A DNA stretch of 64,000 nucleotides. Source: Crossaster papposus. Taxonomy: Eukaryota > Echinodermata > Asteroidea > Velatida > Solasteridae. Numbering within the stretch: the first letter of the stretch is position 1; the number at the start of each line of letters is the position of its first letter. The notes beneath the pieces were generated by a model, which did no database searches, was not told the DNA's origin, and saw nothing but the letters and a program-made list of their open reading frames with translations. A program made the translations under genes and the position numbers. Of this stretch, positions 22,017-61,546 are shown in pieces. Location: assembly GCA_037893245.1 (NCBI GenBank), contig JBAIAA010000021.1:1550001-1614000 (forward strand), written 5' to 3'.

Positions 22017-22139
22017 TAACAGTGACGAAAACAACTCTGATCAATTCAATATTCAATTCAAGATGGTTTATTAAAACCACAAATCGTGACTCACAGGCTA
22101 AATTGCATGTGGTTTAACAGTTATATTTTATTTCAAAGT

Positions 22140-25030: not shown

Positions 25031-26532
25031 AGATCCTTATAGTTCTTGTATTAACATAGATTCATTATAATTCAAGTGCAGTGCAATATTGTAATTAATG
25101 TGTTTAGTATTGTGACAGTGTTACACGTCATTTTGATTTGATTTTTAATTAAAGTTTATTTCAATCAATATCTTCTGTCAAGTGCCCTCATCTGTCACGA
25201 GAGCTCGTGCTTATTTTATTAGGTACAATGAACAATAGGGCATATATATAGTCTTATTGTCCTAGACACAGACACATGGTTACTGTACTATCCAGCTTAA
25301 TAATTGGATGCGAGCAATTCCTAAAATACACATGAAAACTCCGAAAAGCCATTGGTAAATTAAACTTATGAAGAAGGCCTCCTTTTCATGAGGAATAACT
25401 CAATAATAGCTTAAACATGCTTTCATAAGTTGACCGATTTCTTATTCTTCAGCGGATTTGTGCATCAGATGGACACTCAAGAACGAGTTTTTCGTATTCT
25501 GGGTTGCCAAATGAACATGTTGACATAAGTTTTGTGGACGTACTCGATCATACCGATACAATTATAAACACGTGGTGGGTCAAAAGGGTACACTTTTTAG
25601 GCTTAATTGCATGTTTAAGCCATGAAGACACCAACAAAATACTACTTTAACAACTGGTCCTTGTCCATAATGTTTAGACCTTCAAATTAAACCTTATTTC
25701 AATCCTCTACCTAGTCTTGTTTGCTAGACGATATTAATCGCGGTATATGCAGCGCGCGTAGGCCGCCGATGCGGGCGTCCTTTAACGTAGGCCGTATAAT
25801 TATACCATACACACGCAACGACCTTCGATAACATCGTCTTGTTTAACTGCTCTAATCTCAGCGCGTGACCTCTATACATAATTCAACAGGGAGGTCAAAA
25901 GCATAATGACGCTTGCGCACTGAAGGAAGTTTGTGTTTTAGAAATGAGGTTGTTAGTTAGGTACCTTGCTCTATGGGTACTGTGTGCGCGATAGTACATG
26001 TACATGTACATGAATTATACATGTACACTAACATGTACATCGCGGCAATCAAACGTACAGGATACGTGGACAGTTAGTTATTTATGTCGCGCCGGGTCCG
26101 AACAGACGGTACAATGGCTTCGGCGAAGCCGGGCGCGCCCAGGGGCATCTTTGCTGTAACATCGATTGCTTCGTCCACTCGGTCTGACATTTTTTTCACT
26201 AAACAACGCTATAAACAACAACGCACGCGACGCGCTCACATGGTCTATTACTATGTCCACACGTCGCTGCGACGTACAGAAACTATACCAGTGAGTCAGC
26301 GATTATGCAAGTTACGTCACGCGATTTTTCACGCAACGTCACAGGCGCATGCAAATGAAAAACAATTCTGCTCGGAATTTTCCGAGCGATTAGAGCAGAT
26401 AAACAAGACGGTCTTAGCGAAGGTTTACTCGCGCGTGGTCTACGGCGTACGTTAGAGGGCGCCCCGCATCGCGAAGATTGTCTTGCAAACAAGACTATCC
26501 TCTACCCCGTGTGGTTCCGGATAAATGGCATA
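25031..26532. other. No recognisable gene
   Basis: This single-copy-looking sequence has no domain-bearing frame. ATGTACATGTACATG palindromic repeats lie near 25997-26040. The frame at 26084-26455 has no recognisable motif. Confidence 0.5.
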
Positions 26533-26787
26533 TGTGACCCGCTCCATCGTAATCAGGAATAAGTCGCTGAGGCCGCTTTACGCAATCGGCCGTTAAAGTG
26601 AATGCATGGGTGAAAATCGTGACCAAGTATTTGTGTGTGCTGTCCGTATGATTTTGGTCAATTTTGTTGATTTCGAAGCTGTTTTTCTCGGAATGTGGAT
26701 TCGGCAAATAAATATACATGACCTGTCATCTTCATCAGACCATAACTTTTTTGAGACTTATTCCTGATTTCGACGGAGCGGGTCACA
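26533..26787. mobile_element. TA-flanked MITE (Tc1/mariner-like style)
   Basis: Inverted ends begin TGTGACCCGCTCC on both sides and extend about 33 bp with two mismatches; they are bordered by TA at 26531-26532 and 26788-26789. No coding capacity. Superfamily is inferred only from the TA flank. Confidence 0.7.
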
Positions 26788-27100: not shown

Positions 27101-29524
27101 CTCGATTTGGTGATAACGCGTGAAAATGTCACACCTATAATCTCAAATATTACAATCCACCCTGGACTTTCGGATCACTATGCGATCATGAGCTGCATTG
27201 GCTTTAAGAAGCCACCCCTCCCAACTATAACTGTGAAAACTCGGCGATGGCGTAATATCGATATCACTGCATTTTGTCACGATATTGGAACATGTCTAGG
27301 GCCTATCAAACATCGACCTCGGCACTGATCAGGACCTTGAAGCTTGTGTTGAAGAGTATGAATGTATGGTGCGTGAAAATGTGGACAAACATGCTCCACA
27401 GGCAACACAATCCATCAAAGTTCGACCGGAACCACGTTGGTTTAATGATGACATCCGAGCAGCGAGGAAGATTCGCCGTCAGCTCGAACGGAGGTGGCGT
27501 GCCTACGGCAAGCAAGAGGCTGATCGGCAGAGCTTTCGCAAGCAATGCAATGTTGTGAACGACATGATCAACCAAGCGAAAGTGGGTCACTTTTCATCAC
27601 TGGTGCAGCAAAGCTCTGGAGACCAGAAAAAGCTGTTCAGGGTTATCGACAAGCTATTACACAAGTCTACGTCCCCAGTCCTTCCGTCCTCAACTTCTGA
27701 CCAGGACCTTGCAAATGCATTTTCAGATTATTTTGTCACCAAGATTACGAACATCCGATCCTCATTGATGCCGGTGTCCAACCCCGTCCCACTAGTAGAG
27801 CCACTAGTAGAGCCACATGCAGATCCCAAGTGCAGACTGTCTTATTTTGAGCCTACAAATGTTAACGAAATTAAGCGTGTCATCATGAACTCGCCGTCAA
27901 AATCTTGCGAACTTGACCCTATTCCAACTATGATGATAAAGCAACACATTGATGTGTTTGCTCCTTTTATTACTGAAGTGGTGAACAAATCGTTGGATTC
28001 TGGTTGCTTTCCGGACAACCTAAAGGTTTCCTACATTCGGCCACTTCTAAAGAAGTCCAGCCTGGACAAGGAGATTCTGAAAAACTACAGACCCGTCTCA
28101 AACCTGAAGTACCTGGGAAAAACCATCGAGCGTATTGTCTCATCCCGCATCTCTGACCACATTCAAGACCATGAGCTTTCGGACGTTTTCCAGTCTGCAT
28201 ACAAGCCATTCTACGGGACGGAAGTTGCGCTTGTTAGGGTCAGTAATGATATCCTGTCTTCGATGGATAATGGCGATATCACTGCGCTGGTTATGCTCGA
28301 TTTGAGTGCAGCATTCGATACCGTTGATCATGGCATCCTCTTATCTCGACTTCAAAACTATCTCGGTATACACGACACGGCTCTCGAATGGTGCAGGTCC
28401 TATCTCTCAAATAGAACCCAGCATGTCAGCATTGGCAATGCAATATCAGATCCTGTTGTTTTAGAGTACTCTGTACCACAAGGGTCTGTGCTAGGCCCAC
28501 AGTGGTTTACTCTTTACACCTTGCCAATTCGTGATATCATCTTGAAACATCATCTGAACTACCATGTCTATGCTGACGATACTCAACTCTACATATCCTT
28601 CAAGTCTTTACAGGAGCCTGCCGATTCTTCGATTGCAAGACTGGAGCAATGCATCTCTGAGATCCGATGCTGGATGAAAAACAACTTTCTAAAACTGAAT
28701 GAGGAAAAAACGGAGTTTCTCTTGTTTGGATCACGCCAACAATTAAAAAAGGTGCCTGTGCCATTTATGATAATCGGTGATGCACAGATAGCCCCATCGT
28801 TGCAGGCCCGGAACTTGGGGGTTATATTTGATTCCGCAATGACATTTAAATCTCACGTTGCTAACACTGTCCGTTTGGCATCATTCCAAATTAGAAACAT
28901 TGGTCGTATTCGCAAGTATTTGAATAGAAGTGCTACCGAGCACATTATCCATGCATTTGTGACTTCACGACTAGACAACGGCAATTCACTACTCTACGGA
29001 CTCCCTCAGAATCAAATATACCGTCTTCAACGTCTTCAGAATACTGCTGCCCGCATCATCACCTTATCTAGGAGGAACTGCCACATAACCCCCATTTTGA
29101 AGGAACTACACTGGCTTCCTGTCTCCCAAAGGATTGTTTTCAAACTCATGCTTCTGGTCCACAAAGCTCTAAACAACAAGGCTCCCTACTACATTAAGGA
29201 ACTACTACATGAATATTCTCCAGCAAGAACTCTTAGATCAAGTAACCAGCAACTTCTCAAGGAACCAATTGCTAAACGAACATGGGGCGCCAAATCTTTT
29301 TCTGTTGCAGCTCCTCGACTTTGGAATTCATTGCCACTTGAACTCAGATCATGCCATTGTACAACTAGGTTCAAATCGCTTCTTAAGACTTACTTGATGT
29401 CACAAATTTTCAAGGATTAATTTACTTACTTACTTACTTTACTTGTTGTTGTCTACAGCGCCTTGAGCACCCTGCAGGGTGGATATGTGCGCTTTACAAA
29501 TCTCATTATTATTATTATTATTAT
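27093..29524 (+). mobile_element. L2/CR1-type retrotransposon, 5'-truncated
   Basis: It begins inside the endonuclease (NITIHPGLSDHYAIMSCIGF) and ends with GCGCTTTACAAATCTC followed by (ATT)n. The 3' end resembles that of the element at 3788-14760 but the proteins are clearly different families. Confidence 0.85.
27366..29420 (+). CDS. Reverse transcriptase of L2/CR1 element
   Basis: This is the longest open frame of the window, 684 codons from ATG 27366; the real frame enters earlier (about 27312), after a frameshift from the endonuclease. Motifs in order: EPRWFNDDIRAARKIRRQLE linker (about residues 22-41), KNYRPVSNLKYLGKTIE (motif 1), QSAYKPFYGTEVAL (motif 2), MLDLSAAFDTVDHG (A), YSVPQGSVLGP (B), YHVYADDTQLY (C), NLGVIFDSAM, SRLDNGNSLLYG and a C-terminus PRLWNSLPLELRS. 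All catalytic aspartates are present. Because the 5' part is missing the copy is dead on arrival, but it is young enough to have no RT stop codons. Confidence 0.9.
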   Translation: MVRENVDKHAPQATQSIKVRPEPRWFNDDIRAARKIRRQLERRWRAYGKQEADRQSFRKQCNVVNDMINQAKVGHFSSLVQQSSGDQKKLFRVIDKLLHKSTSPVLPSSTSDQDLANAFSDYFVTKITNIRSSLMPVSNPVPLVEPLVEPHADPKCRLSYFEPTNVNEIKRVIMNSPSKSCELDPIPTMMIKQHIDVFAPFITEVVNKSLDSGCFPDNLKVSYIRPLLKKSSLDKEILKNYRPVSNLKYLGKTIERIVSSRISDHIQDHELSDVFQSAYKPFYGTEVALVRVSNDILSSMDNGDITALVMLDLSAAFDTVDHGILLSRLQNYLGIHDTALEWCRSYLSNRTQHVSIGNAISDPVVLEYSVPQGSVLGPQWFTLYTLPIRDIILKHHLNYHVYADDTQLYISFKSLQEPADSSIARLEQCISEIRCWMKNNFLKLNEEKTEFLLFGSRQQLKKVPVPFMIIGDAQIAPSLQARNLGVIFDSAMTFKSHVANTVRLASFQIRNIGRIRKYLNRSATEHIIHAFVTSRLDNGNSLLYGLPQNQIYRLQRLQNTAARIITLSRRNCHITPILKELHWLPVSQRIVFKLMLLVHKALNNKAPYYIKELLHEYSPARTLRSSNQQLLKEPIAKRTWGAKSFSVAAPRLWNSLPLELRSCHCTTRFKSLLKTYLMSQIFKD

Positions 29525-32370: not shown

Positions 32371-33335
32371 TTGGCTTTTGTCTGTTCAATTTTAAAGTGT
32401 ATACTATTAATTCGAGTATTTTTTATTCATGGTTTTTATTTTTGTAACTTTGAATACTTTGGGTCTTTTGACCACTTTGTTCATTATGTGTGTAAAATAA
32501 ACCACTAATTTACTGCACAATCTTTCGTTTGATTCAGTAGTCCCAGCGTTCCACATCAGTAGACACGCGCATGCGTAACGGCTGATGCAAATCGCAGAAA
32601 AACGCAGAGGCCACTCCCTAACTGTGATCTTTCTGTGGCATGTCGAACGTCTTATAACCTCGCCCGGCTTGGACGGGTTATCTTTGCGCAGAGGCGATAT
32701 CGTAACCAATGAGGCCAAACCGAGGTGCGATTATTGCTAGTTGAAAACTTATCCCAATACCCCGCAATGACGACGTGAAATACCGTCGGCATATGCAATT
32801 TTTGACGGTCTCTACGGGGACCCAAATAATGTAATCGAAAAGTAGAAGAAACAACAATATACAAAATCATATGCAGCAAATTAATTATATTTAGTCACAA
32901 CTACATCCTTTACCTAACTATGACTAAAAGACGTAACTTGCAAACTACAAAATATCTGCATGCCAAGAGACACAAGAATTAATGTTTACACAATTTATTT
33001 ACATATTGATTATTATTAAATACAATTCTTCAATATTTCTGAATTGAACCGATCATTTATATAGGTACAGTGACAATTTACTAATGAATTAAATTACACT
33101 GACTCTGGCTAGTCATCAGTTGTGTCCTTCGCTTTAGGAATTTATAATTTGTCTCTCAAAAGGAAACTAAAATCAGCCAACCTTCTGAATTCAATCTCTA
33201 GCGGTTAAGAGCTAAATCACTCTGATCGGAAATAATTTAAAAAATAAAGGCATGTTCCCACCAATTCGGTGGATTTTCTGGACATTTGTTTCTGTCATTT
33301 TACACACAATTAAGTTATTCAGTCTTAAGCTTGTC
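32371..33335. other. No recognisable gene
   Basis: AT-rich sequence with a short GC-rich patch near 32640-32700. I see no coding or structured element. Confidence 0.5.
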
Positions 33336-33617
33336 GGAACAGCTGTCGTTCCTGTTCCAGTCGCTGCAGAACAGCTCAAAGTTCCTGTTCCAGCCGCTGC
33401 GGAACAGCTATCGTTCCAGTTCCAGTCGCTGCGGAACAGCTCAAAGTTCCTGTTCCAGTCGCTGCAGAACAGCTATCGTTTCAGTTCCAGTCGCTGCGGA
33501 ACAGCTATCGTTCCAGTTCCAGTTCCAGTCGCTGCGGAACAGCTCAAAGTTCCTGTTCCAGTCGCTGCAGAACAGCTATCGTTTCAGTTCAGTCGCTGTG
33601 GAACAGCTCTAAGCTCA
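33336..33617. repeat. Minisatellite, 32-33 bp unit, about 9 copies
   Basis: The unit core is GTCGCTGCGGAACAGCT followed by alternating CAAAGTTCCTGTTCCA or ATCGTTCCAGTTCCA. Because most units are a multiple of three, two frames stay open and mimic a repetitive protein, but there is no other support for coding. Confidence 0.85.
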
Positions 33618-34839
33618 GTTTTGGATGTAGCTACGTGTCACTACTCAAAGCTGATGTACTAAGATGGTTGAACTAGGCACTTACTGCCGTCTGCTGTCAC
33701 TTGGGCGCGGTACTCAAACTAAAGTTGAAAACCATCTACATACGTTAAACAAAAATAACCAAACTACAATAGTACGGTGTAAAATAATATCTCAAACATT
33801 TTTGAAAAGCGTTCAAATCTTCGAAATCTATCAACTTGGGACTTCATTCCGTGAAACAGAAATACTGAAATTTAAAACATTTAACTTACGCCCACAACAA
33901 ATTTCTAGTAGTGTCAAATGCACCCAAAACACATGCACTGATAATCGCTGACAAATGCATGCTATTCAGAATCAGGGAAACCCCTTAAAGGGGCGTGGCT
34001 TGTTAATTTAAAAGTGATATTATATACATAAAACATAATTAATTAACATTTGAAAACATTGTGGATCTTTTCTTAGATTTAACTTACCGTTAGGAATTGA
34101 AAAACTGTAATTGGTGTTCATTTTTGTGTGAATATATGGCGGTTTTCACTTTTTGCCTCCCTTTTTTTCTAGAAATAGACACAGAAAATGACTAAACCCC
34201 CAAAAGAAATGTTGGAAACATATAAATCTGTTCTAGGAGGGCGCTCAACAATCCAAATATCGTTTGGGAATACATTATTTGCGCCCTGTCTGCCCCCCCC
34301 CCCCCTTTTTTTTCCACCCCTATCCACAACAAAAGAATGACACTGCAAATACACCAAAAAGGCAAGCGAGAGTTTTGTGAACCGGAACTTACTCATGCTC
34401 GAGTTTATAACGCAAACGAAAACATCACGTATATACATACACCGTAAACAAGAAAATCGACCCATTTAGCGACGTGCCACTGCGCTGTGTTTTAACGATT
34501 ATGCTTTCGGTCGCGGCACCGTACGTGTATAGGCAGAACAAAGCCCTACTCAATTGTAGAACAAAATCAAAGGAAGGGGTGGGGGAGTATTGAGTACCCC
34601 AATAAATTGCCAAAGTTGTGATTGTATACGACATTGTTTTTGTGGATCCAAAGGGTCAGCTCCCAGCTCCTTTGTACAATCGTACAATGTATAGAAAGGA
34701 CGTGTTCAAAACGGGCTTCCATAACTACGACTGTGTCTATTGTCATCCTGCCGATTACGCGTATGGCGAACACCTAGACAATAGCCATTTACGAGATATT
34801 CGGACGCAGCCTGGCTCGGTGACTGACTATCACAATTTG
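33618..34839. other. No recognisable gene
   Basis: Non-coding sequence with a C13 run at 34293-34305. Nothing else was identified. Confidence 0.45.
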
Positions 34840-35057
34840 TGACACGATCAAGCGAAATCAGTCGGATGTCGGCCCCGGTCAAAAAATGAGTGTTCATGTA
34901 GTTTCAAAGAGGGCATCTGTACGTTTTAAAAACTGAAAACCCCATGTTGATACGATGTTTTGTTGTCGAGTTATGTAAATTTGTTTAAATACCAACGAAG
35001 AATACAGTGCATTTTGGGGATTCGCCGACATCCGACTGATTCGGCTTGATCGTGTTA
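34840..35057. mobile_element. Short MITE, about 33-bp inverted ends
   Basis: ACACGATCAAGC...AATCAGTCGGATGTCGG at 34841-34873 is matched in reverse at 35026-35057 with few mismatches. 218 bp, non-coding. Confidence 0.7.
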
Positions 35058-35228
35058 CGTTTGGAGAAAAGTTGGTACTTTTATTATAAAGAAACACAAT
35101 AAGTTACGATTAAGGCGAGGCGTCATTAGTATGACACGCCGTTCCCCTGCGAGCGCACGCGTTCCTTGGCGTTCCTATTAAATCAATAACAAAAAACAAT
35201 GGGCCTCTCTGCCGGGACGGAACGGGAA

Positions 35229-35254
35229 GGGGGGGGGGGGGGGGGGGGGGGGGG
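35229..35254. repeat. Poly(G) tract, 26 nt, inside the left inverted repeat
   Basis: The mirrored right repeat has a C25 run at 49262-49286 in the same relative place. Confidence 0.9.
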
Positions 35255-37129
35255 TGGGGGGAGTTCAGCCATCCACCGAGGCAGGAACGCGCCATTGTGT
35301 GTACTTGTTATGTAATTGTTGCGTTCCGCTGGTTATTAGCCACGGCAAAACGATCCGAAAAGGTGACAAATAAACGGAAGACGGGCGTAAAGAAAACCAA
35401 CAATTATTAGTCCGCTATTTTGTCCGCTTTGGATGTTTTTGTTAATACAGGTTTATGGTCACATAATTGGGTTTTGTATTGGTAATTTTCATTTGATAAT
35501 TTCTAAGATAGAGTGCCAGTGTGCAAACAGTAATATTTCACGGCTATATTTTGTTTATGTTCACTGCTACTTTTGGTTTTGGTACAATTTAAACAAAATA
35601 CAACTTTTAGGGAACACCTAAAAAAAATAGTTCTGAAATGTTCATGTTTTACGACTATCTATGTTGCGCGACTGTGCGATGGACTTGTAGGCCTACATTT
35701 GTGGATGCATTAACAAAAATGGCAGTGAAAATAAGTTGTTAAGATAACGAAATCCGAACACGTAAATTATTGTACATAAATAAACAGAACGAGTGAGTAA
35801 TCGACTAGTAATGTCTTTGCCAATAACGCTGAATGATGTCTGGTGGAAAGATTCACAAGTTATTATGCTTGCACGACTATTTATTCCCATCTCATGGTAT
35901 TACTGTTCCAATAATCCTATATACCCAAGATATACAAAACACTCGTCAGTTAAATTGTGATATTTTATATCGAGTTTTTAATGCCACTTCGTGTACCTGC
36001 AAATGAAAAGAGAAAGAACCGTTTTTAAAAACAACCGCTAGAACAACATTTCTTTCCGCAATAATTTGTGTCTATGTACATACATTGTACATGTATTCTT
36101 ACTGCTCTATTGTATTCCTGTCGAGCATGGAACGCGGGCAGAACGGGGCTCGTGCGCTCGCGAGAGGACGGGGTAACAACAATAGCCGCGTTCCTCCCGT
36201 TCTGACGCAGTTGAACGGCAGGTCATCTTATGACGCCTCGCCTAACTGCATTTCCTTCCACAATAAACAAATGGAGTCTTCTATTTCCATGACAACCAGA
36301 CACAACTCGATATTGTGCGATAACAATTCTGAAGGTTACATATTGAAAGACGTAATAACAATCATAACAAATAGCCGTGATTTCTAATTTCGAGCTATTC
36401 TTTATACTGTTGACGGAGCGAAGGCGCACGTTCGGCAACGAACCCGTATTAATTAGGCAGTTGGCGTTAAATGCGCATCGCGGTTGCATCGTCGATGTTT
36501 CATTCAAATTCACCAACTCTCACCGTGATTCAATTTCGTCCGAGAAAAATCAGTTTCACACGCTTTTACCAAACCAATTTAGTTAATATTTAGGCCTATC
36601 ATTCAATGTCATCGTTTTGTCACTATTCGTCATTACTGATCAAATTCAGTATTCACAAATCGATTAAAATTCATGTTAAATACATTAGTCTGATGTGTAC
36701 TTGAGTCAAGACTAATTTGTATTTAACATAAGTTTTAAATTGAATGATTAGACGAATTCGATCTCTTAACGCTGCCTTTCGGCAACAACTTAGACGAATT
36801 TGATTGAATAATGAATAATGAATATTAAATTGAAGGATAAATGACTAAATTGGTTTGGTAAAAGCGTTTGAATTATTTTCTCGGATGAAGTTGAATGTGA
36901 GAGTTGGTGAATTTGAATGAAAAATGTTATAACATAGCCGGGAAAACCTATATTGGGCCTATACTGTAATTCGAAGACTGAGTCAAAAAGAAATTTACGA
37001 GAAAACTGTAAAAATGCCCTTTGCAAACCAATGTTTCATCTTTAGTCTATTTCACTGTGAATTGCTGGTGATTAGCCCAACTTGCATAAGACCTGCACAT
37101 CGCTAACGAGGAGAAGTTAACCAGCCACG

Positions 37130-37208
37130 ATGTTTAAGTGGAACATTAATTTTGGACTTGTTGTATACATGCTTATTCTGCTTGGAACCTTTGTAACAAC
37201 AGCATCAG
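37130..37208 (+). CDS. Signal-peptide exon, copy 1
   Basis: ATG starts a 26-codon stretch: a basic N-terminus MFKWN, a hydrophobic core LVVYMLILLGTF and a small-residue end TTAS, typical of a secretory signal. After TCA G comes GTAAGT, a consensus donor, leaving phase 1. The exon at 57815 begins in the matching phase and reads A-TVCYFGQ, so it is the likely partner. A near-identical copy lies at 43983. No TATA box is evident upstream. Confidence 0.65.
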
Positions 37209-37614
37209 GTAAGTTTTTGTTCCCTTTGTTCAAAATGATTAGAAAGATATATAATAAAAATTAAAACCCTATAGCATTATTGATTTTTCATCATGCATTT
37301 AAGTCCGGGAGCTAGCGACATAATATTTCACCCCATTTCACCCATAAGGTTTGACCACTTACAGTTACTAAGGTCGTCCAGGTCAGCCTGCCCCCAGAGG
37401 TGGGGTCTGGCCCCCAGGCCTCTTGAAAAGCCCCCAGAGACGGTTGATTTTACCTCATCTCTTTCATGGACAAGGAAATGAAAAACCGGACCAAATTTTA
37501 AGTATGGAAGATGTGGACAGACCCCCCACGAAGTGCGCCAATAGTCGGTAGTACATTACAAATACACATGTATGTAACAAATTACAAAACGTCAGGTTGG
37601 GAAGGTGTTGTCAG

Positions 37615-37647
<33 letters not shown>

Positions 37648-38023
37648 ACCCAAACTACAAACAGACAAGTTTGGATTCGAGGCATCTCGTGACTGTGTCC
37701 CCCTTCATTTTGCTACTCATTTTTTCTCTATAAAGCTTTGTTTAGAAATGGCAAAAGGGACTTTGGACGTGTGCAAGTCCACAATCTATAATCTCTCCCC
37801 GCAACCTGCACGTATTGATGTTCGCAGGGACTATAATTCGTACACCATTATATACGCACTGTTGAGATTCCTTTGTCTTCGTGTAGTTAGAAAGACACTG
37901 GCCAGTTAAATTTACCTCATCTTAAACATGGACCAAACTTTATCAAATTAAAGTACTAGGGCAGTACAAAAAGAACAAATTCACAACATTTCAAAGGTGT
38001 TTTCCGACCATATATTAACCCAT
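37209..38023. other. Intron-like sequence with a C32 run
   Basis: A GGTCGTCCAGGTCAGCCTGCC block and a 32-base C run (37616-37647) are shared with unit 2. A frame from 37511 crosses the run but is not supported as a gene. Confidence 0.55.
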
Positions 38024-38601
38024 TAGTCAGGTTCATAATGTACATATTGAAAGTTTCGTTCATTTTTTGTGTAGATTTGCTAAACTATACATTTTTGGAA
38101 ACGTTAGGATATACTTAACATGAAAACCAATGTTTTATGGACCTTTATGGACCTTTATTGTGACGTGACACATGAAAAATCAAAGGGTGTCACATTAAAG
38201 GTCCATTGTTTTCAATGGCCTATATCTCTGGAGGTATAAGTCCGATTGGGTTCAAACTTGGTATGCAGATATGGCGAGATGTGGTATAGATATACATTGA
38301 AGTGACATCATGATGACGTTATCGTGTGATTTGTTATGATTTTGTTTAATATTTGGACCTTTAAGCCATATCTCATCAACAGAACATAATACATTTAAAA
38401 TAATTGTTGTAATATGTTTATTGGGTGACGTCATCATGACGTCATCAAAATGCCAATTAAACAGTCCAAGATGGCCGACATAAAGAACCTGAAAACAAAT
38501 GTAAACATTGGTTTGCATGTTAAGTATATCCTAACGTTTCCAATGTATAGTTTAGCAAATCTACACAAAAAGTGACCAGAAATACATGAGAAACCTGACT
38601 A
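38024..38601. mobile_element. MITE related to the Academ-like element (unit 1)
   Basis: TAGTCAGGTT and AACCTGACTA ends are bordered by CAT on both sides (38021-38023 and 38602-38604). Its inverted repeats continue GTTTCGTTCATTTTTTGTG, GATTTGCTAAACTATACATT and AACGTTAGGATATACTTAAC, the first two closely matching the TIR of the 3964-10083 element. The interior has CCAAGATGGCCG, also seen in that TIR. A 3-bp duplication fits the Academ style. Confidence 0.75.
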
Positions 38602-38639
38602 CATGGACAACATTTAGTCAATTTTTTTTTTAAATATGT

Positions 38640-39052
38640 GGCCGGTTTGCGTAATTGTTCTTCCTAGGAGGGTTAGGGGTATTTATCGTAAATGGGCGTA
38701 TCTACACCACACTGAGTGGGAGACACTTCGGTTTTTAGATTCTTACTTTCCCTTAAATTAAACTCACTCCAACAATAAAATTGGAGACCAAAAATAGTCA
38801 ATGAAAAACAAGCAGATACCGAACCTCATTCAAACGATCAATAACCTAACCCATTATCCAATAAGCTACCGTGAGAAGTCGACAGAAGCCGTTTTTCAAA
38901 GTGTTCTAATGTACCTCTGGGCTACGTTTAACTAGTTGAATTAGCAATAACAATGTATTAGCGTCATTGCTAATACATCGTGAGGGGTCTAGAGCCGCCC
39001 ATTTATGATAAGTACCCTAACCATCCTAGGAAAAAATACGCGACCGGTTTAA
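38640..39052. mobile_element. MITE with internal tRNA-like sequence (unit 1)
   Basis: Inverted ends of about 55 bp contain TTCCTAGGAGGGTTAGGGG and ATAAATGGGCG. A minus-strand tRNA-like segment with box A (GTAGCTTATTGGATAATGGG) and a weak box B lies inside, about 38820-38885; the unit 2 copy keeps GGTTCGAAT. A further tRNA-like box A (AACTCAGTCGGTAGAGCA) abuts the right end at 39050-39070. Confidence 0.65.
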
Positions 39053-40965
39053 CTCAGTCGGTAGAGCATCGGACTAAAGATCACAAAGTCCGTGGCCTTG
39101 CGCTTTGAAAAGTGGATTAATCCCTCGCTGTATGGCTGATACCTGTAATAAGCCTCCTCAACTGACCTCTCATCTAGGTTTTCCCAGCCAATTTAAGCAT
39201 AAATTCATTCAATTTAATACCCGTCTCATTAAATGTCGTTTGAAAATGAATGCTCCGTTGCATCAGCATTCAACAGTCAAAAGAAGTAATTCCATTTCAG
39301 CAGTTAGCATTTACTGGCCAAATAAGATAATTCAAAAGTGAATAATGAGGTCGCAAAGATTATTACATTTCATAAAAGCCAGCAGCAAGAGGCTGGTCAA
39401 CCATTCAATGTAATCAATATCAATCGGAAAACATTTTTCAAATGTTTATAGTCAAATTCGTTTCTATGGTATATGCTTTCTGATTTCGTATTTGCCGATA
39501 TAAGGCAGATATTTTAAGAATTCAATTGTACACTAATTCTGCGTTATATACCTTTAAGTAGAGTGATTGTTAACGAAAACTGCATAGCTGGCCGTATTCA
39601 GTATAACCAAATGTCGGCCAAATAACTTTCGGAAAGTGTGTGAGTAGGTATAACTACAACCACGTCTAAACGTGAATGGCTAAATACCTTGGCACGTCTG
39701 AACATTGAAGGCTAAATAAACCAATTAGAAATAAAGAAACGATTAGTAGAAATATACATATAACAGAAAAAGAAAAGGACCAGTGAAAAAACATATACAG
39801 GAAAAGAACATGTTTTGTTTGTTAATTGTATAACAACCTCCTAATGATGTTAAGCTTTTGTTTCTTAAACACTTGTTAGTTTGTATTTTGACATGGTCCG
39901 AACACTAGTAGAAATAGAGAAGAAAACATAAAGACCAGCGCAAACGATCACAAGGCTATGCACAGGCCCCATTCTGCCCGCGTTTCATGCTCAACAGCAA
40001 TACAATAGAGCAGTCACGCGTGCTTGAACGCATTGTGTCAATCAATGTGTCAAAATTGATGCTTATATAAACAGTCCTGAATTGACTGAGTATATTATTA
40101 CCCCGGCTTTTTACGAATCCCAAATAAAGTCGAATCGGATCCACGTCATAATAGTTTGGTTCGCTTCCCCGTGGACCGTTATCCTTAAGTATAAGTCCCA
40201 TGAACGTAATCTTGCAATAAACCCGATAAAAGCCAGACCTCAAAAGCTAGACGATGAAGAATGGACAATTATTCCAAACCTGCATGTATAAGTTCTTTGG
40301 CAATTATAATTCGTGCGCCGAGAGAATACAAGTAACTAAAAGTCATATACAATGGTGCAATAGCTGGCACAATGCAGGCTGGATACATCTGCCGGAATCT
40401 ATTATTACAAATATAAGACGAGGAAACGAACCCAATTATGTGATCATAAACTAACATGATGAGAACCATTTTCTCAATTTCATATGTATTCGTGTCAACA
40501 ATTTTTCACCTAAAATGAAACACTTCTTCCCGGATTAGCAAAATTGTGCCATTAAAAATGTAAAAATTGCTTTTACAAAATATAACAACAAAGATTAGGG
40601 TTTCAACTCTTGAATGGGAAATTACAAAAAGATAACATTTAGAAGCCAAAATGTTATTATGTTGAACAACCTCATGAAATAATGAATACCTTTATTTTTG
40701 TTAAACTGCTTGAACATGTGCTTTGCATGTAACCTTATCACATTGTAGTTTGTAAAAAATGGGGAAAAAAGTTTGTTAATATTGTACATGGCAAAGTGTA
40801 ATGTTTAATATTTAAAAATGCACTTCTCCTTGCTATTTTTTTAGAACGTGGTTTAATACCATGAAATAATGACATTTTAAAATCTACCTTTGATTTGAAC
40901 GTACATAAAGTCAAAATTACAGTGCAGGACATTTCAGTCATTTTGGGCGGACATTACAATACGAT
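39053..40965. other. Unit 1 right part and inter-unit spacer, no gene
   Basis: 39100-40455 is shared with unit 2. 39955-40040 is the inverted match of the repeat end at 42880-42960. 40456-40965 is unique. No coding evidence. Confidence 0.5.
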
Positions 40966-41966
40966 CATAGACCTGCTATTCTGATGTCCATTCAGAATGG
41001 CTGGAGTATGGTTATAGACCGGCTATTCTTATGTTTATCCAGAATGGCCGGAGTATGATAATAGATCGGCTATTCATATATCCATCCAGAATGGCCGGAG
41101 TATGATCATAGACCGGCTATTCTTATGTCCATTCAGAATGTCCGGAGTATGATCAAAGACCGGCTATTCTTATGTCCATCAAGAATGGCCTGGGTGTGAT
41201 CATAGACCGACTATTCTTAAGTCCATCCAGAATGGCCGGTGTATGATCATAGACCGGCTATTCATATATCCATCCAGAATGGCCGGAGTATGATCATAGA
41301 CCGGCTATTCTTATGTCCATCCAGAATATGATCAAAGACCGGCTATTCTTATGTCCATTCAGAATGGCCGAAGTATGATCAAAGACCGGCTATTCTTATG
41401 TCCATCCAGAATAGCCGGAGTATGATCAAAGACCGGCTATTCATATATCCATCCAAAATGGCCGGAGTATGATCATAGACCGGCTATTCTTATGTCCATT
41501 CAGAATGGCCGGAGTATGATCATAGACCGGCTATTCTTATGTCCATCCAGAATATGATCAAAGTCCGGCTATTCTTATGTCCATCAAGAATGGCCGGAGT
41601 ATGATCAAAGACCGGCTATTCTCATGTTTATCCAGAATGGCCGGAGTTTGATCAAAGACCGGCTATTCTTATGTCCATCCAGAATGGCCGGAGTATGATC
41701 AAAGACCGGCTATTCTCATGTTTATCCAGAATGGCCGGAGTTTGATCAAAGACCGGCTATTCTTATGTCCATCCAGAATGGCCAGAGTATGATCAAAGAC
41801 CGGCTATTCTCATGTTTATCCAGAATGGCCGGAGTTTGATCATAGACCGGCTATTCATATATCCATCCAGAATGGCCGGAGTATGATCATAGACCGGCTA
41901 TTCTCATGTCCATTCAGAATGGCCGGAGTATGATCATAGACCGGCTATTCTCATGTCCATCCAGAA
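40966..41966. repeat. Minisatellite, about 47-bp unit, some 21 copies
   Basis: The unit reads GACCGGCTATTCTTATGTCC then ATCCAGAATGGCCGGAGTATGATCATA, with variants including a shortened form lacking GGCCGGAGT. Copies are 80-100% alike. It ends exactly where the inverted-repeat segment ATATGTTTTATAG begins (41967). Confidence 0.93.
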
Positions 41967-43982
41967 ATATGTTTTATAGAGTCGATCCAAAATTGGTCCA
42001 TACCTACAAGGATTGTATGTGGTATACATGTGTGTGTACTGGTTTGTTTTCAGGTAGTTTCACACCGTGGCGAGTAATCATTGATGTTGTCATGAATTGT
42101 TTTTGTCCGCTTTCGATGTTTTTGTTAATACAGGTTTATGGTCACATAATTGGGTTTTTTATTGGTAATTTTCATTTGATAATTTCTAAGATAGAGTGCC
42201 ATTGTGCAAACAGTAATATTTCACGGCTATATTTTGTTTATGTTCACTGCTACTTTTGGTTTTGGTACAATTTAAACAAAATACTTTTAGGGAACACCTG
42301 TTTTGTTAGAAAAAAAATAAGTTTTGAAATGTTCATGTTTTACGACTATCTATGTTGCGCCACTGTGCGATGGACTTGTAGGCCTACATTTTTGGATGCA
42401 TTAACAAAAATGGCAGTGAAAATAAGTTGTTAAGATAACGAAATCCGAACACGTAAATTATTGTACATAAATAAACAGAACGAGTGAGTAATCGACTAAT
42501 GTCTTTGCCAATAACGCTGAATGATGTCTAGTGGAAAGATTCACAAATTATTATATGCTTGCACGACTATTAATTCCCATCTCCCGGCATTACTGTTCCA
42601 ATAATCCTACCCAAGATATTCAAAACATTCGTCAGTTAAATTGTGATATTTTATATCGAGTTTTTAATGCCACTTGTCCGCCTTCATGTACCTGCAAATG
42701 AAAAGAGAAAGAACCGTTTTGAAAAACAACCGCTAGAACAACATTTTTTACCGCAATCATTTGTTATATGTACATATATTGTATATGTATTCTTACTTAA
42801 TATTATAAATGTAGGCCTACGTGTAAAATACATCAGCTACTGGTTGTGCAGTCGTTCTTCACGTCCGCCGCGATTGACACAATTCGTTCAAGCACCCGTG
42901 ACTGCTCTATTGTATTGCTGTCGAGCATGGAACGCGGGCAGAACGGGGCCCGTGTGCTCTCGAGAGGATGGGGTAATTGAACAACAATGGCCGCGTTCCT
43001 CCCGTTCTGACGGAGGGGAACAACGGGTCATCTGAATGACGCCTCGCCTAACTGCATTTCCTTCCACAATAAACAAATAGAGTCTTCTATTTCCATGACA
43101 ACCAGACACAACTCGATATTGTGCGATACAAATTCTGAAGGTTACATATTGAAAGACGTAATAACAATCATAACAAATAGCCGTGATTTCTAATTTCGAG
43201 CCATTCTTTATACTGTTGACGGAGTGAAGGCGCACGTTCGGCAACGAACCAGTATTAATTAGGCAGTTGGCGTTTAATGCGCATCGAGGTTGCATCGTCG
43301 ATGTTTCATTCAAATTCACCAACTCTCACCGTGATTCAAATTCGTGCGAGAAAAATCTGTTTCACACGCTTTTACCAAACCAATTTAGTTAATATTTAGG
43401 CCTATCATTCAATTTCAACGTTTTGTCACTATTCGTCATTACTGATCAAATTCCTCTAAAGTCGTTGTCGAAAGGCAGTATTCACAAATCGATTTCGTCA
43501 CATATCTATTAAAATTCATGTTAAATAAATTAGTCTGATGTGTACTTCAGTCAAGACTAATTTGTATTTAACATAAGTTTTAAATTGAATGATTAGACGA
43601 ATTCGATCTCTTAACGCTGCCTTTCGGCAACAACGTAGACGAATTTGATCGAATAATGAATATTATCGAGCCAATGTTAAAATTGTTGAAATTGAAGGGT
43701 AAATGACTAAATTGGTTTGGTAAAAGCGTGTGAATTATTTTCTGGGATGAAATTGAATGTGAGAGTTGAATGGAAAATGTTATAACATAGCCGGGAAAAC
43801 CTATATTGGGCCTATACTGTAATTCGAAGACTGAGTTAAAAAGAAATTTACAAGAAAACTGTGAAAATGCCCTTTGCAAACCAATGTTTCATATTTAGTC
43901 TATTTCACTGTGGATTGCTGGTGATTAGCCCAACTTGCATAAGACCTGCACATCGCTAACGAGGAGAAGTTAACCAGCCACG

Positions 43983-44061
43983 ATGTTTAAGTGGAACATC
44001 AATTTCGGACTTGTTGTATACATGCTTATTCTGCTTGGAACCTTTGTAACAACAGCATCAG
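43983..44061 (+). CDS. Signal-peptide exon, copy 2
   Basis: The exon has the same 26 codons as the exon at 37130 and the same phase-1 donor (G|GTAAGC). The nucleotide differences seen, such as ATC/ATT and TTC/TTT, are synonymous, which suggests constraint or recent duplication. It is the nearer candidate first exon for the exon at 57815, giving an intron of about 13.75 kb. Confidence 0.65.
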
Positions 44062-44833
44062 GTAAGCATTTGTTTCCTTTGTTCAAAATTATTTGAAAGA
44101 GATATAATAAAACTTAAAACCCTAAAGCATTATTGATTGTCACCATGCATTTAAGTTCGGGAGCCAGCGACATAAGATTTCACCCCCATTTCACCCATAG
44201 GGTTTTGACCCCTTACAGTTACTAAGGTCGTCCAGGTCAGCCTGCCCCCAGAGGTTGGGTCTGGACCCCAGACCCCTTGAAAAGCCCCCCGAGACGGTTG
44301 ATTTTACCTCATCTCTTTCATGGACAAACAAAGAGGGAAAAACCGACCAAATTTTACGCTGGGAAGGTGTTGTCAGACCCCCCACGAAGTGCGCCCACAG
44401 TTAGTAGTATACATTACGAATATGTAAAAACTTACAAAACGTCAGGTTGGAACGGTGTTGTCAGACCCCCCCCCCCCCCCCCCCCCCCACACACACACCA
44501 CAAACTACAAACAGACAAGTTTTGATTCTAGGCATCTCATGACTGTTTCCCAGAAAGGGCGAAACGGACTTTGGCTTGTGCAAGTCCACAATCTATAATC
44601 TCTCCCCGCAACCTGCACGTATTGATGTTCGCAGGGTCGGGACTATAATTCGTACACCAATATACGGACTGTTGACATTCCTTTGTCTTCGTGTAGTTAG
44701 AAAAACATTGGCCAGTTTAATTTACCTCATCTCAAACAGGGACCAAACTTTATCAAAATAAAGTGCTAGGACAGTACAACAAGAACTAATTCACAACATT
44801 TCAAAGGTGTTGTCAGACCATATATTAACCCAT
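44062..44833. other. Intron-like sequence with a C23 run
   Basis: It corresponds to 37209-38023 of unit 1. The C run is at 44466-44488 and is followed by (CA)n. Confidence 0.55.
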
Positions 44834-45596
44834 TAGTCAGGTTCATAATGTACATATTGAAAGTTTCGTTCATTTGTTAGGATATACTTAACATGAAAAC
44901 CAATGTTTACATTTGTTTTCAGGTTCTTTTGGAAAAAATAGACCTTTAATGTGACGTGACACATGGAAAGTCATTGGGTGTCACATTAAAGGTTCATTTT
45001 TTTTCAATGCCCTATATCTCTGGAGGTATAAGTCCGATTGGGTTCAAACTCGGTAGGCAGGTATGGTTGGATGTGGTATAGATATACATTGAAGTGACAT
45101 CATGATGACGTCATCGTGTGATTTTTGTATGATTTTGTTTCATTTTTGAACTTTAGGCCATATCTCATCAACAGAACATATACATTTAATACATTAAATA
45201 TGTTTATTGGGTGACGTCATCATGACGTCATCAAAATGCCAAAATCCCAGATGGCCGCCATAGGAACTTGAAAACAAATGTAAACATTGGTTTTCATGTT
45301 AAGTATTTCCTAACGTTTCCAAAAATGATCACCGGATTATTTTAGTCACGTACAACTAATCTACGGTGGCTAAAACAGAGAAGTGCGCGTGTGGATAAAC
45401 TCCTGTGATCATCGCAATTCAGTAAGAAAATAATCGGTTGTTTATGCTTAGCCGATGTTTAGTGGTCTAGCCGTACATCATTCTATTCACAGCGGATTAC
45501 GTAATATGTTGAATAAAAGGGCATATCTATCTTCGAAAACACGCATATCGCTGTGCTCTGCTGGTCAGCTCAGTTGACACTAGTGGGAGGGTCGCC

Positions 45597-45761
45597 ATGT
45601 CGAAAAAACGCGCTAATAATTTTACTCATGACCAGAAAATGGGTCTCATTGAGTGTGTAATGATGGGGAAAAGTTCTTCCAGTGCTATTTCAATGATACG
45701 CAGCAGATCCATATACGTCTGTCCCACAAGCAAAATGGTAATTTGTACGTACACGAGATAA
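45597..45761 (+). CDS. Short frame resembling a DNA-binding N-terminus
   Basis: 54 codons, starting MSKKRANNFTHDQKMGLIEC. The basic start and the F(T/S)xxxKxxLIE pattern are reminiscent of Myb/SANT- or MADF-like N-termini of PIF/Harbinger-type elements, but no further domain follows. It lies inside the insertion that interrupts the MITE. It could be a fossil of the insertion's own gene or chance. Confidence 0.25.
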   Translation: MSKKRANNFTHDQKMGLIECVMMGKSSSSAISMIRSRSIYVCPTSKMVICTYTR

Positions 45762-45783
45762 ACAAGCCCCTTGGGACGTTTAA

Positions 45784-46017
45784 CCAGTTCGCGCCGGGAT
45801 TATTTTAACATCGCCAAGCCCACGGGCGGGATTATTTTTAACGAAACTCGATCCGAAGCGGGTTCAGGCTGATAGTGCCGGGAAGCACACCCACGCATTT
45901 CCGGCCTTGCTCGCTGCTGACATACATTTCCGAACTTGAACTTGGCGTGTTTATGCGTCATCCGTTTTGAATTTGGGGAATTTTTTGCGTTTATATACGT
46001 CATCCGGCGCGAACTGG
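45784..46017. mobile_element. piggyBac-type MITE, copy 1
   Basis: TTAA flanks both ends (45780-45783, 46018-46021). The ends are CCAGTTCGCGCCGG and its inverse CCGGCGCGAACTGG. 234 bp, non-coding. Confidence 0.85.
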
Positions 46018-46309
46018 TTAACATTTCCTTTGTTACTTTAGACGCATGTCACTGTACGTTTTGTAAACAGCAGCTGATCTAAGCACTCTTTATGAATTCG
46101 GGCCTAGATTTGTAAGTTCGATCATCAACTTTGTATGCACAGTTTAGCCTAGTTAATCGTGATCAAGGGAAAATCACCGTTTATGAATTTGGCCCGTATA
46201 GTTTAGCAAATATACACAAAAAGTGAACGAAATTACATAAGAAACCTGACTACATGCATGTAATACATGGACAAAACTTAGTCGAAATATGTTTTAAAAT
46301 ATTATGCGT

Positions 46310-46738
46310 CCGGTTTGCGCAATTGTTTTTCCTAGGAGGGTTAGGGGTAATTATCATAAATGGGCGTATCTACACCACACTGAGTGGAAGACACTTAGGT
46401 TTTTAGATTCTTACTTTCCCTTAAATTAAACTCACTCCAACAATAAAATTGGAGACCAAAAATAGTAAATGAAAAACAAGCAGATACCGAAATTCGAACC
46501 CCATTCAAACGATCAATAACCTAACCCATTATCCACTAAGCTACCGTGAGAAGTCGACAGAAGCCGTTTTTCAAAGTGTTCTAATGTACCTCTGGGCTAC
46601 GTTTAACTAGTTGAATTAGCAATAACAATGTATTAGCGTCATTGCTAATACATCGTGAGGGGTCTAGAGCCGCCCATTTATGATAATTACCCCTAACCCT
46701 CCTAGGAAAACAAATACGCGACCGGTTTAACTTAGTCG
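46310..46738. mobile_element. MITE with internal tRNA-like sequence (unit 2)
   Basis: This is the copy of 38640-39052. Here the tRNA-like box B is intact on the minus strand (GGGGTTCGAATTTCGG near 46490). Confidence 0.65.
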
Positions 46739-47826
46739 GTAGAGCATCGGACTAAAGATCACAACGTCTGCGGCCTTGCGCTATGACAAGTGGATATAAT
46801 CCCTCGCTGTATGGCTGATACCTGTAATATGCCTCCTCAACTGACCTTTCATATAGGTTTTCCCAGCCAATTTAAGCATAAATTCATTCAATTTAATACC
46901 CGTCTCATTAAATGTCGTTTGAAAATGAATGCTCCGTTGCATCAGCACTCAACAGTCAAAAGAAGTAATTCCATTTTAGCAGTTAGCATTTATTGGCCAA
47001 ATAAGATAATTCAAAAGTGATTCATGAGGTCGCAAAGATCATTAAATTTTATAAAAGCCAGCAGCAAGAGGCTTGTCAACCATTCAATGTTGTCAATATC
47101 AATCGGCAAACATTTTTCAAATGTTTATATTCAAATTCGTTTCTATGGTATATGCTTTCTGGTTTCGTATTTGCCGATATAAGGCAGATATTTTAAGAAT
47201 TCAATTGTACACTAATTCTGCGTTATATACCTTTAAGTAGAGTGATTTTTTACGAAAACTGCATGGCTGGCCGTATTCAGTATAACCAAATGTCGGCCAA
47301 ATAACTGTCGGAAAGTGTGTGAGTAGGTATAACTACAACAACGTCTAAACGTGAATGGCTAAATACCTTGGCACGTCTGAACATTGAAGGCTAAATAAAC
47401 CAATTAGAAATAAAGAAACAATTAGTAGAAATATACATATAACAGAAAAAGAAAAGGACCTGTGAAAAAACATCTACAGGAAAGAACATGTTTTGTTACA
47501 AAACTTGTTAGTTTTTATTTTGACATGGTCCAAACATTAGTAGAAATAGAGAAGAAAACCTAAAGACCAGTACAGCGCAAACGATCACAAGGCTATGCAC
47601 GGGCCCCGTTCTGCACGCGTTTCATGCTCAACAGCAATACAATAGAGCAATCATGGGTGCTTGAACGCAATGTGTCAATCATTGTGTCAAAATGTTTGTT
47701 CATATAAACAGTTCTAAATTGACTGAGTATATTATCCCGGCTTTTTACGAATCCCAAATAAAGTCGAATCGTATCCACATCATATCACTCAGTTTAGTTC
47801 GCTTCCCCGTGGACCGTTATCCTTAA
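46739..47826. other. Unit 2 right part, no gene
   Basis: It matches 39053-40195 of unit 1. Frames here are not supported as coding. Confidence 0.5.
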
Positions 47827-47963
47827 TTAATAAATACCTAGGAGAGTTCAAAGCTTCTGATTGGTCGAGACTCGATCACGTGGAGGGCATTACCACGCAG
47901 TAATTGACCGGGATTTCAAAAATTGAAGCAAATTCACCGTTTATTTCCTAAATAAAAAGGTAT
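47827..47963. mobile_element. TTAA-flanked short insertion, absent from unit 1
   Basis: Unit 1 reads ATCCTTAAGTATAAGTCC. Unit 2 has the insert between two TTAA copies (47823-47826 and 47964-47967). Its left end, ATAAATACCTAGG, matches in reverse the right end of the next insertion. Confidence 0.6.
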
Positions 47964-48189
47964 TAAGTATTAGTCCCATGAACGTAATCTTGCAATAAAC
48001 CCGATAAAAGCCAAACCTCAAAAACTAGACGATGAAGAATAGACAACTATTCCAAACCTGCATGTATCATTAATTTTGGCAACTATAATTCGTGCGTCGG
48101 CAGAATAAAAGTAACTTAAAGTCATATGCAATGGTGCAATAGCTGGCACAATGCAGGCCTGGTACGTCTGCCGGAATCTATTATTAAGG

Positions 48190-48685: not shown

Positions 48686-49404
48686 TTATGAATATAAGAC
48701 GAGGAAAACAAACCCATATGTGACCATAAACTGTATTATAAACAAAACATCGAAAGCGGACAAAAACAATTCATGACCACATCAATGATTACTCGCCATG
48801 GTGTGAAACTACCTGAAAACAAACCAGTACATGTACATGTATACCACACCAAATACTTGAAGAGGTTTGGACCGATTTTAGATCGATCCTATAAAACATA
48901 TTTCAGGCTAATCATTTGGGGTTTTTTTTTACGCCCGGCTTCCGTTTATTTGTCACTTTTTCGGATCGTTTTGCTTATACCCCTTCAGCACGATATGTGG
49001 CAGAGGGGTACCCCCCTCTTATCCCTATACCTTATACACACTCAACACTATTGTAACTTAACCCACCCCTCCTTGAAACCTAAAAGGAATTCCTAAGATT
49101 CCGGGAACACAATGGCCAACACAAAAGAGGGGGGGTTTTCTCTGCCACATTCGTGCTTCATATGGTTTTGCTGCTGCTAATAACCTGCCCGTGGTGGAAC
49201 GCAACATTTACAAAACAAAGAAGTACACAATGGCGCGTTCCAGCCTCAGTGGATGGCTGAACCCCCCCCCCCCCCCCCCCCCCCCTCCCCTTCTGACGCA
49301 GGAGAACGGGCCCATTGTTGTTTTAATTGTTCCTGTGCAAGAACGCCAAGGAACGCGTGCGCTAACCGGGGAACGGCATGTCATCTTAATGACGTCTCGC
49401 CTAA

Positions 49405-50377
49405 AAAACTTGACAACAAATTAACTCACAAAGCTAAAACAAATTGTGAAAGACCTAGATCTAGAAGTCTCTCTTACAGGAAAAAGAGGTTGACCTTTAA
49501 AAAATGATTTTATACAGATGATCAAGATATTTAAATCACCCGAAGATTTGTCCGCGCCATTGTTTGTATTTTGCAAATTGCATGCCCCGCTTATGTTATT
49601 TGCACATTGGCCTTTAAATGAAAAGCCTGGCGCTATTTGTATCTGCAGTGCATCGTATCGGTAATTTGTGTATCCAGTATTTGAAGACCCAGTACCCTTT
49701 TATATAGTTCTTTGTAAGGAAGCACCTCTGAGCATTTGCTAAATGTATTTGGCAAAGAGGATGTACCGTACCTGTAAATTGTATTCACCTAAAAGAGGAA
49801 GCGACTCAATTTATTTATATTTTGCAAAACAACAACAACAACAACAAACGACCACAAAAATAACAAAAAAACACACAGTGATGCCCTGCATTTGTATTGA
49901 GCTAAAAAAGTGTCAGCACCTGTGATTTATATTTGCCTTAATAAAGTGCCTCTTGGCTTTTGTATTTTGCTAAGATGGGACCAAATAGTCGTTAAATGTA
50001 TTTGCCCTAAACGAGAAATTGCCTCTTTCTATTTGTATTCTGCGAAATATCCCCACGCCTGTTAATTGCATTTGCCTTTTACGAAGTGCATCTTGTCCCT
50101 TAAGTTTGACCAAAAGGGAAGCGCTGGCAACTGTTATTTTCATTTGCCTTTAGTAATATTAACCCCTGTACTGCCCAAGGGTGGAAAAACTCAAGTGAAA
50201 AATCTAAATCATGGTGAAACAACATCAAATTTACCCTTTTATTGACGTATATTTATATACACAAATGATATTTTGGGCGAGCATCTGGATGTTGGGCACT
50301 GTATCATATTTTGTATGATACACTGGGCGGTCGGGACAATACCTTTACCACATACATATCTTTGTCAATAGTTTCCT
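49405..50377. repeat. Degenerate tandem repeats, about 80-90 bp
   Basis: From about 49550 to 50150, blocks such as TTTGTATTTTGC, AATTGTATTTGCC and AAGTGCCTCTTGG recur in order with heavy divergence. No gene. Confidence 0.5.
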
Positions 50378-57814: not shown

Positions 57815-58030
57815 CGACGGTCTGCTACTTTGGCCAGGCACCAGACCCGGAATGGAATGATTCCTACCGCTGGATGATCCCGATTGAAGATCCCTGCCGA
57901 TGTACGGAGGTCATGCTCGGAGGGATGAAAATGCCGCGTACATATCGCCTGCCCTTCAGAGTGAAGTATTACGACACCATTTTGCAAAGCCGCAATACGG
58001 ACGAGATTCGAACCTGGCTGAATTGTAGTA
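57815..58030 (+). CDS. Cysteine-containing exon of the HYR-discoidin gene (copy B)
   Basis: The acceptor is TTTTCTCTTTTAG and the donor is A|GTGAGT. The exon is 216 nt, phase 1 to phase 1, fully open. It encodes TVCYFGQAPDPEWNDSYRWM, EDPCRCTEVMLGG, LPFRVKYYDTILQSR and TWLNCS. I do not recognise the domain; four cysteines and no hydrophobic segment suit an extracellular module. Its phase matches the signal-peptide exons at 37130 and 43983 and the HYR exon downstream. Confidence 0.7.
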
Positions 58031-58580: not shown

Positions 58581-58823
58581 ATACAAGTTCTCCTAAACCA
58601 GTGTTTTCAGACTGTCCCACTCATGATATCATCGTGGCCAACCCATCGGTTACCTACACCATCCCGACCGCTATTGACGCAGACACCGACGTACCGCTCA
58701 ACGTGTCTTGCAGTCCGACTCAGGCAACGAATTTCACCCAGAACTATACGGTGGTCACTTGCCGGGCCAGCGATGCCGCTGGAAATGTGGGCACGGAAGA
58801 ATGCACCTTCAATGTCACACTTG
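58581..58823 (+). CDS. HYR domain exon (copy B)
   Basis: The acceptor is CATTTCAG and the donor is G|GTAGGT. The exon is 243 nt, phase 1 to phase 1, fully open. It encodes one hyalin repeat: SDCPTHDIIVANPS, then DTDVPLNVSCSPTQATNF, then VTCRASDAAGNVGTEECTFN. The C...C...C pattern and the VxCxAxDxAGNxxxCxFxV ending are diagnostic of HYR. HYR domains occur in extracellular adhesion and complement-like proteins. It joins in phase to the discoidin exon at 59975. Confidence 0.88.
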
Positions 58824-59974: not shown

Positions 59975-60085
59975 CTTGCTCAGACCCCCTCGGGATGGAA
60001 AGTGGTATCATACCAGACAAAAGGCTGTTGGCGTCAGATGAAGACCATGACACTCCCGCACGGGAGTCTCGTCTTAATTCTGATG
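59975..60085 (+). CDS. Discoidin exon 1, gene copy B
   Basis: The exon has the same splice sites, length (111 nt) and phases as 14852-14962. It encodes CSDPLGMESGIIPDKRLLAS, ending RESRLNSD. Confidence 0.8.
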
Positions 60086-60582: not shown

Positions 60583-60771
60583 ACGCATGGTGTGCATATT
60601 ACCACCCCAAACCGCTTTGGATAAGCGTAGACCTGGAAGCAGTGACTATAGTCACTAATCACCCAAGGACACGTCTATCGTAAAAGCTGGGTGACGTCAT
60701 TCAAGGTACAGTACAGCGACAGTGGGACTAATTGGAGTGACGTCATCAATGCCAACGGCTTGACAGTACAG
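60583..60771 (+). pseudogene. Discoidin exon 2, gene copy B, frameshifted
   Basis: Splice sites match copy A, but 5 bp (GGACT after GTCACT) are missing near 60657. The frame then reads TNHPRTRLS and a stop. After the deletion the sequence again matches copy A. Unless this is a sequencing error or the exon is skipped, gene B makes a truncated discoidin domain. Confidence 0.75.
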
Positions 60772-61351: not shown

Positions 61352-61487
61352 TTTCAGGGAAACGTGGACGGCGCTAGCCCAGTAACCAACTACTCTCCCG
61401 CGGTTTTGAACACGCGATTCATCAAAATACGACCTCTCGCTTGGACCAGAATAGTTTGTCTCCGTTTTGAACTGCTGGGATGCAGAG
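61352..61487 (+). CDS. Discoidin exon 3, gene copy B
   Basis: The acceptor is CTCTCATTTAG. The exon encodes FQGNVDGASPVTNYSPAVL, then IKIRPLAWTRIVCLRFELLGC. It ends with the same putative GC donor (AGAG|GCGAGT) as copy A; reading through gives a TGA at 61493. Confidence 0.75.
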
Positions 61488-61546
61488 GCGAGTGAATGCA
61501 ATTAAATAATGTTTTCAAAATCCTCTACAAATGGTCTCTGTCAAAT

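Follow-up and report, generated by a model that had tools for sequence, protein, structure and literature searches.

The closest case that we found to the gene described here is PEP1, a flowering gene of the plant Arabis alpina. There, a tandem duplication covers a portion of the promoter, exon 1, and part of intron 1, with the copies 6.3 kb apart; both copies of exon 1 splice to one exon 2, RACE shows separate start sites, and inactive alleles are mostly mutated in the shared exons (PMC3527215). The kind of arrangement considered here is already known. Tandem 5' cassettes with alternative promoters and shared 3' exons are also reported for the chelicerate sDscam and vertebrate protocadherin genes (PMC4835542). 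By analogy, the chelicerate Dscam cassettes are a more elaborate relative in layout; the sDscam and protocadherin cassettes carry variable domains and generate isoform diversity (PMC4835542), whereas the exons described below encode the same 26 residues. A literature search, a weak one as there was no gene name to go by, found no account of the present gene family with a doubled first exon.

The window analyzed in this study is a stretch of 64,000 nucleotides from the sea star Crossaster papposus (C21:1550001-1614000). A tandem array of genes lies on its contig, and the third of them falls within the window. Our preferred reading, to which we assign a probability of roughly 0.7, is that a partial tandem duplication in this gene has given it two alternative first exons for the same protein. 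That the 5' end of the gene has a duplicated anatomy is close to certain; that both first exons are used is a candidate at about even odds. A segment of about 5-6 kb, reaching from the 5' flank through exon 1 into the start of intron 1, was duplicated in tandem, and both exon copies keep their ATG, frame, and donor. In the scheme that we propose, promoter activity of each front end would give two transcription starts, and each first exon would be spliced to the shared exon 2, so that the same, presumably secreted, precursor would be made from either.

Both copies of the first coding exon lie on the forward strand and measure 79 nt. Copy A (37130..37208) ends in the phase-1 donor GTAAGT and copy B (43983..44061) in the donor GTAAGC; each has an ATG start and an open frame, and the product of both is MFKWNINFGLVVYMLILLGTFVTTAS, a putative signal peptide by eye. 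Both point the same way, and a single exon 2 follows, 20.6 kb downstream of A and 13.8 kb downstream of B. The sequence-only reading had described two 79-nt exons with a shared start and phase-1 donor, lying in direct duplicates, and both statements are borne out (35418-40407 against 42101-48186 for the duplicates). Its claim that the exons have the same 26 codons has to be corrected, as the residues are identical but only 24 of the 26 codons are: nucleotides 18 and 24 of the 79 differ, giving the synonymous pairs ATT/ATC and TTT/TTC. As in PEP1, two copies of exon 1 precede one exon 2 and the same protein is predicted from each, at a spacing of 6.85 kb as against 6.3 kb, and the window likewise has a direct duplicate of 5' flank, exon 1, and part of intron 1, with exons 2 onward single. 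Two differences from PEP1 stand out. Both transcripts of the plant gene have been shown, whereas the window gene is an animal gene known from its sequence alone; and the regions upstream of the two exon-1 copies are highly diverged in PEP1 but still alike here.

The array was read in 264 kb of the contig (C21:1410001-1674000; a window position is the region position minus 140000), where a sequence search placed exon 1, exon 2, and the HYR exon, each time in this order, at region positions 17718, 46185, and 46969 in gene 1 and at 103162, 132085, and 132871 in gene 2. In gene 3, the window gene, copies A and B of exon 1 are at 177130 and 183983, followed by exon 2 at 197815 and the HYR exon at 198581. 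Among these three genes, only gene 3 has two first exons. Genes 1 and 2 have one signal-peptide-like exon each, located 28.4 and 28.8 kb upstream of the exons for the Cys-containing, HYR, and F5/8C domains. F5/8C exons lie downstream in all three genes, and gene 1 has a second such domain (PF00754, E 5.1e-23, 82 bits against a cut-off of 28.2, read from exon pieces). The best matches of the F5/8C domains among PDB sequences are to neuropilin-1, and the array probably encodes secreted animal proteins. An apparent nonsense codon at the start of the F5/8C domain in gene 2 was dropped as a candidate, since the donor sites, when compared, point to an intronic position of the stop.

Self-comparison of the window defined the two duplicate units, both on the forward strand and both made up of 5' flank and exon 1 followed by the start of intron 1. 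Unit A extends over 35418..40407 and unit B over 42101..48186, the latter with an insertion at about 45322-46196 that A is without. They align in four blocks, 35418-36103 with 42101-42797 (92.2% identity), 36101-38543 with 42901-45322 (86.0%), 38545-40191 with 46196-47829 (89.9%), and 40185-40407 with 47963-48186 (90.6%); the weakest of the duplicate and inverted-arm matches listed in this paper has an E-value of 6e-16. Genes 1 and 2 have sequence at their 5' ends to which most of the duplicated unit aligns at about 80-91%, and we therefore take the unit to be the window gene's own front end. Within the 264 kb, most of the unit is matched at gene 5' ends only, except for short pieces, such as 35505-35647, 42795-42986, and parts of the insertion at 45322-46196, that also match elsewhere in the region. 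To the right of unit B, window positions 49402-49780 match an intron of gene 1 (region 22124-22509) at 86%; unit B thus occupies the usual position, with the remainder of intron 1 behind it, and on these alignments unit A looks like the extra copy.

Two further features of the front ends were observed. Upstream of gene 1, at C21:1424405-1425330 (region 14405-15330), the 5' part of the unit is present once more as a partial copy that lacks exon 1, and front-end duplication may therefore have occurred more than once in the array. A long imperfect palindrome (window 36495-36925) is situated a few hundred bases upstream of exon 1; its inverted matches run at about 66-74% among the eight exon-1 flanks compared, and its matches in the 264 kb lie upstream of the four exon-1 copies only.

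The surroundings of the units bear on the proposal, made by the sequence-only reading, that the exon had been captured from the host by a transposon. A repeat, here called X, has its first part to the left of unit A (35060..35410, forward strand), its second part to the left of unit B (41961..42100, forward strand), and both parts inverted to the right of unit B (48707..49405, reverse strand), where an insert at about 48975-49161 interrupts it. The resulting inverted arms align at 75.9% (35110-35354 with 49405-49162), 88.1% (35345-35410 with 48974-48908), and 87.3% (41961-42160 with 48907-48707). That such arms flank the exon pair, and that pieces of the arm repeat recur elsewhere in the array, is what a transposon or a composite mobile unit bounded by inverted repeats would lead one to expect. 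Both parts of X stand together just before the unit in gene 1, in the left arm's orientation (region 15943-16418), and again before the partial extra copy of the unit's 5' part (13833-14407), and further pieces occur within the first introns of gene 1 (26422-26564) and gene 2 (106600-106854); matches at region 4618-4806 and 12587-12770 are to the right-arm insert (window 48975-49164) and not to X. However, neither direct duplicate has a complete arm pair, contrary to the earlier description of each as bounded by inverted repeats, and there is one inverted X copy only, the one to the right of unit B. On sequence grounds, the layout of X seems to fit a tandem duplication in a repeat-rich place better than it fits a two-ended element.

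A search of the whole genome assembly (1.02 Gb, 1841 contigs) with the 79-nt exon also speaks against a mobile unit. Nine candidates were found, and all nine were scored as matches; they are confined to two of the 1841 contigs, although the search skips words that are very common in the genome, so that the lack of further matches is not absolute proof. Four copies are on C21 (1427718, 1513162, 1587130, which is A, and 1593983, which is B) and five on C170 (298691, 334496, 382994, 424424, and 431238), and in all nine the frame is open and the donor is GTAAGC or GTAAGT. Nine copies on two contigs are not the many dispersed copies by which the exon was to have been exposed as transposon sequence. 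Every copy on C21 stands at the 5' end of a gene in the array, and most of the unit is common to the 5' ends of genes 1 and 2, which leaves a captured exon very improbable. Of the earlier alternative, one gene with two promoters and two first exons, the anatomy has held up, with sequence homologous to the surroundings of the exon at the front of both other genes, and the use of both promoters stays at candidate strength.

The junction between the units is occupied by a 47-bp minisatellite of 21.7 copies (40963..41966, assigned to neither strand). A duplication of the front end would not be needed if unit A were instead the remnant of another complete gene that had lost everything from exon 2 on by deletion, the double exon being the scar of that deletion. 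In favor of this, the number of exon-1 copies does differ between the two contigs (four on C21 and five on C170). Yet no match to exon 2, the HYR exon, or the F5/8C exons at a good E-value was found between A and B; the sole hits there are of the third F5/8C query to the minisatellite (E 0.31-0.57), and the other matches lie in the three gene bodies and the second F5/8C domain of gene 1. We consider such a scar improbable, and if it were real the gene would have ended up in the same state.

The contig C170 carries a counterpart of the locus. In C170:420001-450000, unit A, the minisatellite, and unit B are followed by exon 2, HYR, and F5/8C in the same order as in the window, with the two exons at 424424 and 431238. 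The double exon is therefore not an accident of one contig. Window positions 32711-41872 are 99.56% identical to C170 over 9170 aligned columns, and beyond 41872 the blocks of unit B are at 83.5-93.2% and exon 5 of the F5/8C domain is at 84%. This fall in identity past the minisatellite, from 99.56% to 83.5-93.2%, suggests a boundary of recombination or conversion. C170 could represent either the other haplotype or a second cluster. Because the two contigs resemble alternative versions of one region, one might suspect that unit B is an artefact of assembly, for example two haplotypes placed in a row. Nevertheless, the order of A, minisatellite, and B recurs with the same junction repeats on both contigs separately, A and B differ by 8-14% in their aligned blocks, and unit B has its own insertion on C21. 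An artefact is the least probable of the explanations that we weighed.

Under the preferred reading of a partial tandem duplication, either first exon would join the same downstream exons, which were placed on the forward strand. Exon 2 (57815..58030), with splice sites by inspection, encodes a 72-residue Cys-containing domain and runs from phase 1 to phase 1. Its acceptor at 57815, preceded by TTTTAG, is plausible, and phase 1 joins phase 1 in frame; neither Pfam (E up to 1) nor the PDB sequences (E up to 10) yielded a match to the domain. Exon 3 (58581..58823) encodes an HYR-like domain, for which PF02494 scores 21.2 bits (E 3.7e-4), slightly below its cut-off of 21.7. Exon 4 (59975..60085; donor GTAATT, 3' end less certain) begins the F5/8 type C domain, and exons 1-4 as placed form one continuous reading frame. 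The domain continues through exon 5 (60583..60771) and ends in exon 6 (61352..61492), directly after which a TGA follows in frame, and the gene may end after exon 6 or use an earlier donor. Downstream of unit B, the remainder of the 264 kb gave a single hit at a good E-value for exon 2, for exon 3, and for each of the F5/8C exons. Exon 5 lacks five bases that are present in all three comparators (gene 1, gene 2, and the C170 copy), and its frame is shifted. The protein of the window gene is therefore probably truncated in the F5/8C domain, whichever first exon is used, unless splicing avoids the lesion.

This frameshift implies that selection on either first exon of the window gene may be relaxed. 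One tentative but serious alternative to the use of both exons is that only one of them is live, the duplication having left the second as a relic that is still to decay. The exons have diverged so little (2 of 79 positions between A and B, and 1-4 of 79 among the eight pairs compared) that an unused one could still look intact. Moreover, no clear signal of selection on the exon was found in substitutions, residue changes, or conservation across the nine copies, and none that separates A from B. Between A and B, the exon has 2 substitutions in 79 positions compared with 36 in 943 over the 1000 bases upstream, which is not clearly lower; five of the eight variable sites in the nine exon copies change the residue and three do not; and conservation reaches 96.2% upstream at -450, compared with 97.1 and 94.2% in the exon windows, so that the exon is roughly equalled in conservation by some stretches upstream of it. 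Exon conservation as a proof of selection was accordingly tried and found weak.

Against the idea of a relic, the four copies in the doubled arrangement on the two contigs have no stop and no indel and retain intact donors, in flanks that are rich in gaps. The exon lies within the longest gap-free run of the nine-copy alignment (112 columns), and 34 of the 37 gap-free windows of 79 columns, among 1597, overlap it. The copy C170_431238 aligns poorly downstream of the exon and the trees have weak nodes, and no dating is based on them. Given the intact frames and donors, long-term use of both first exons is plausible.

The rest of the window has features of its own. A nearly perfect 2.5-kb palindrome (15437-17934, 98.8%) has a 401-aa frame on each strand with a GIY-YIG match below the cut-off, and looks like head-to-head Penelope-like copies. 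Reverse-transcriptase frames (PF00078) at 13298-13960, 18876-19517, and 27300-29420 probably belong to LINE-like retroelements, and an open frame of 512 aa (6508-8046) has a weak DUF6589 match below the cut-off.

The F5/8C domain is common to the family of the window gene and to neuropilin-1, coagulation factors V and VIII, and lactadherin. The family is unlike those proteins in forming a tandem array and in that the domain comes after a putative signal peptide, a Cys domain with no database match, and one that is HYR-like. Across four copies, exon 2 differs at 0-3 of 70 residues per pair and the HYR exon at 1-15 of 80. The F5/8C sequences compared were those of the window (60583-60771 and 61352-61492), gene 1, gene 2, and C170, and 17 of the 22 positions in three loops vary compared with 16 of the 90 elsewhere (Fisher p 2.4e-7, an optimistic value because the loops were picked after the variation had been seen and the four rows are also related). 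By alignment with neuropilin-1 and the position of its VEGF pocket, the three loops presumably lie at the ligand-binding end.

Partial duplication at the front of a gene is a simple way to a second promoter that leaves the product unchanged, and with several copies of one 5' region at one locus, on two contigs, the front ends could be compared with each other. The duplicated exon may be less interesting than the gene family itself, in which the front is conserved and the F5/8C loops vary. As a speculation that we regard as rather doubtful, the array could encode diversifying secreted recognition proteins, in which the signal peptide and Cys domain stay constant, the F5/8C domain varies mainly in its neuropilin-type ligand loops and is shuffled by recombination between copies or haplotypes, and one member has acquired a second promoter by partial duplication. 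If so, the second promoter would shift the dosage or tissue range of that member and leave its protein unchanged.
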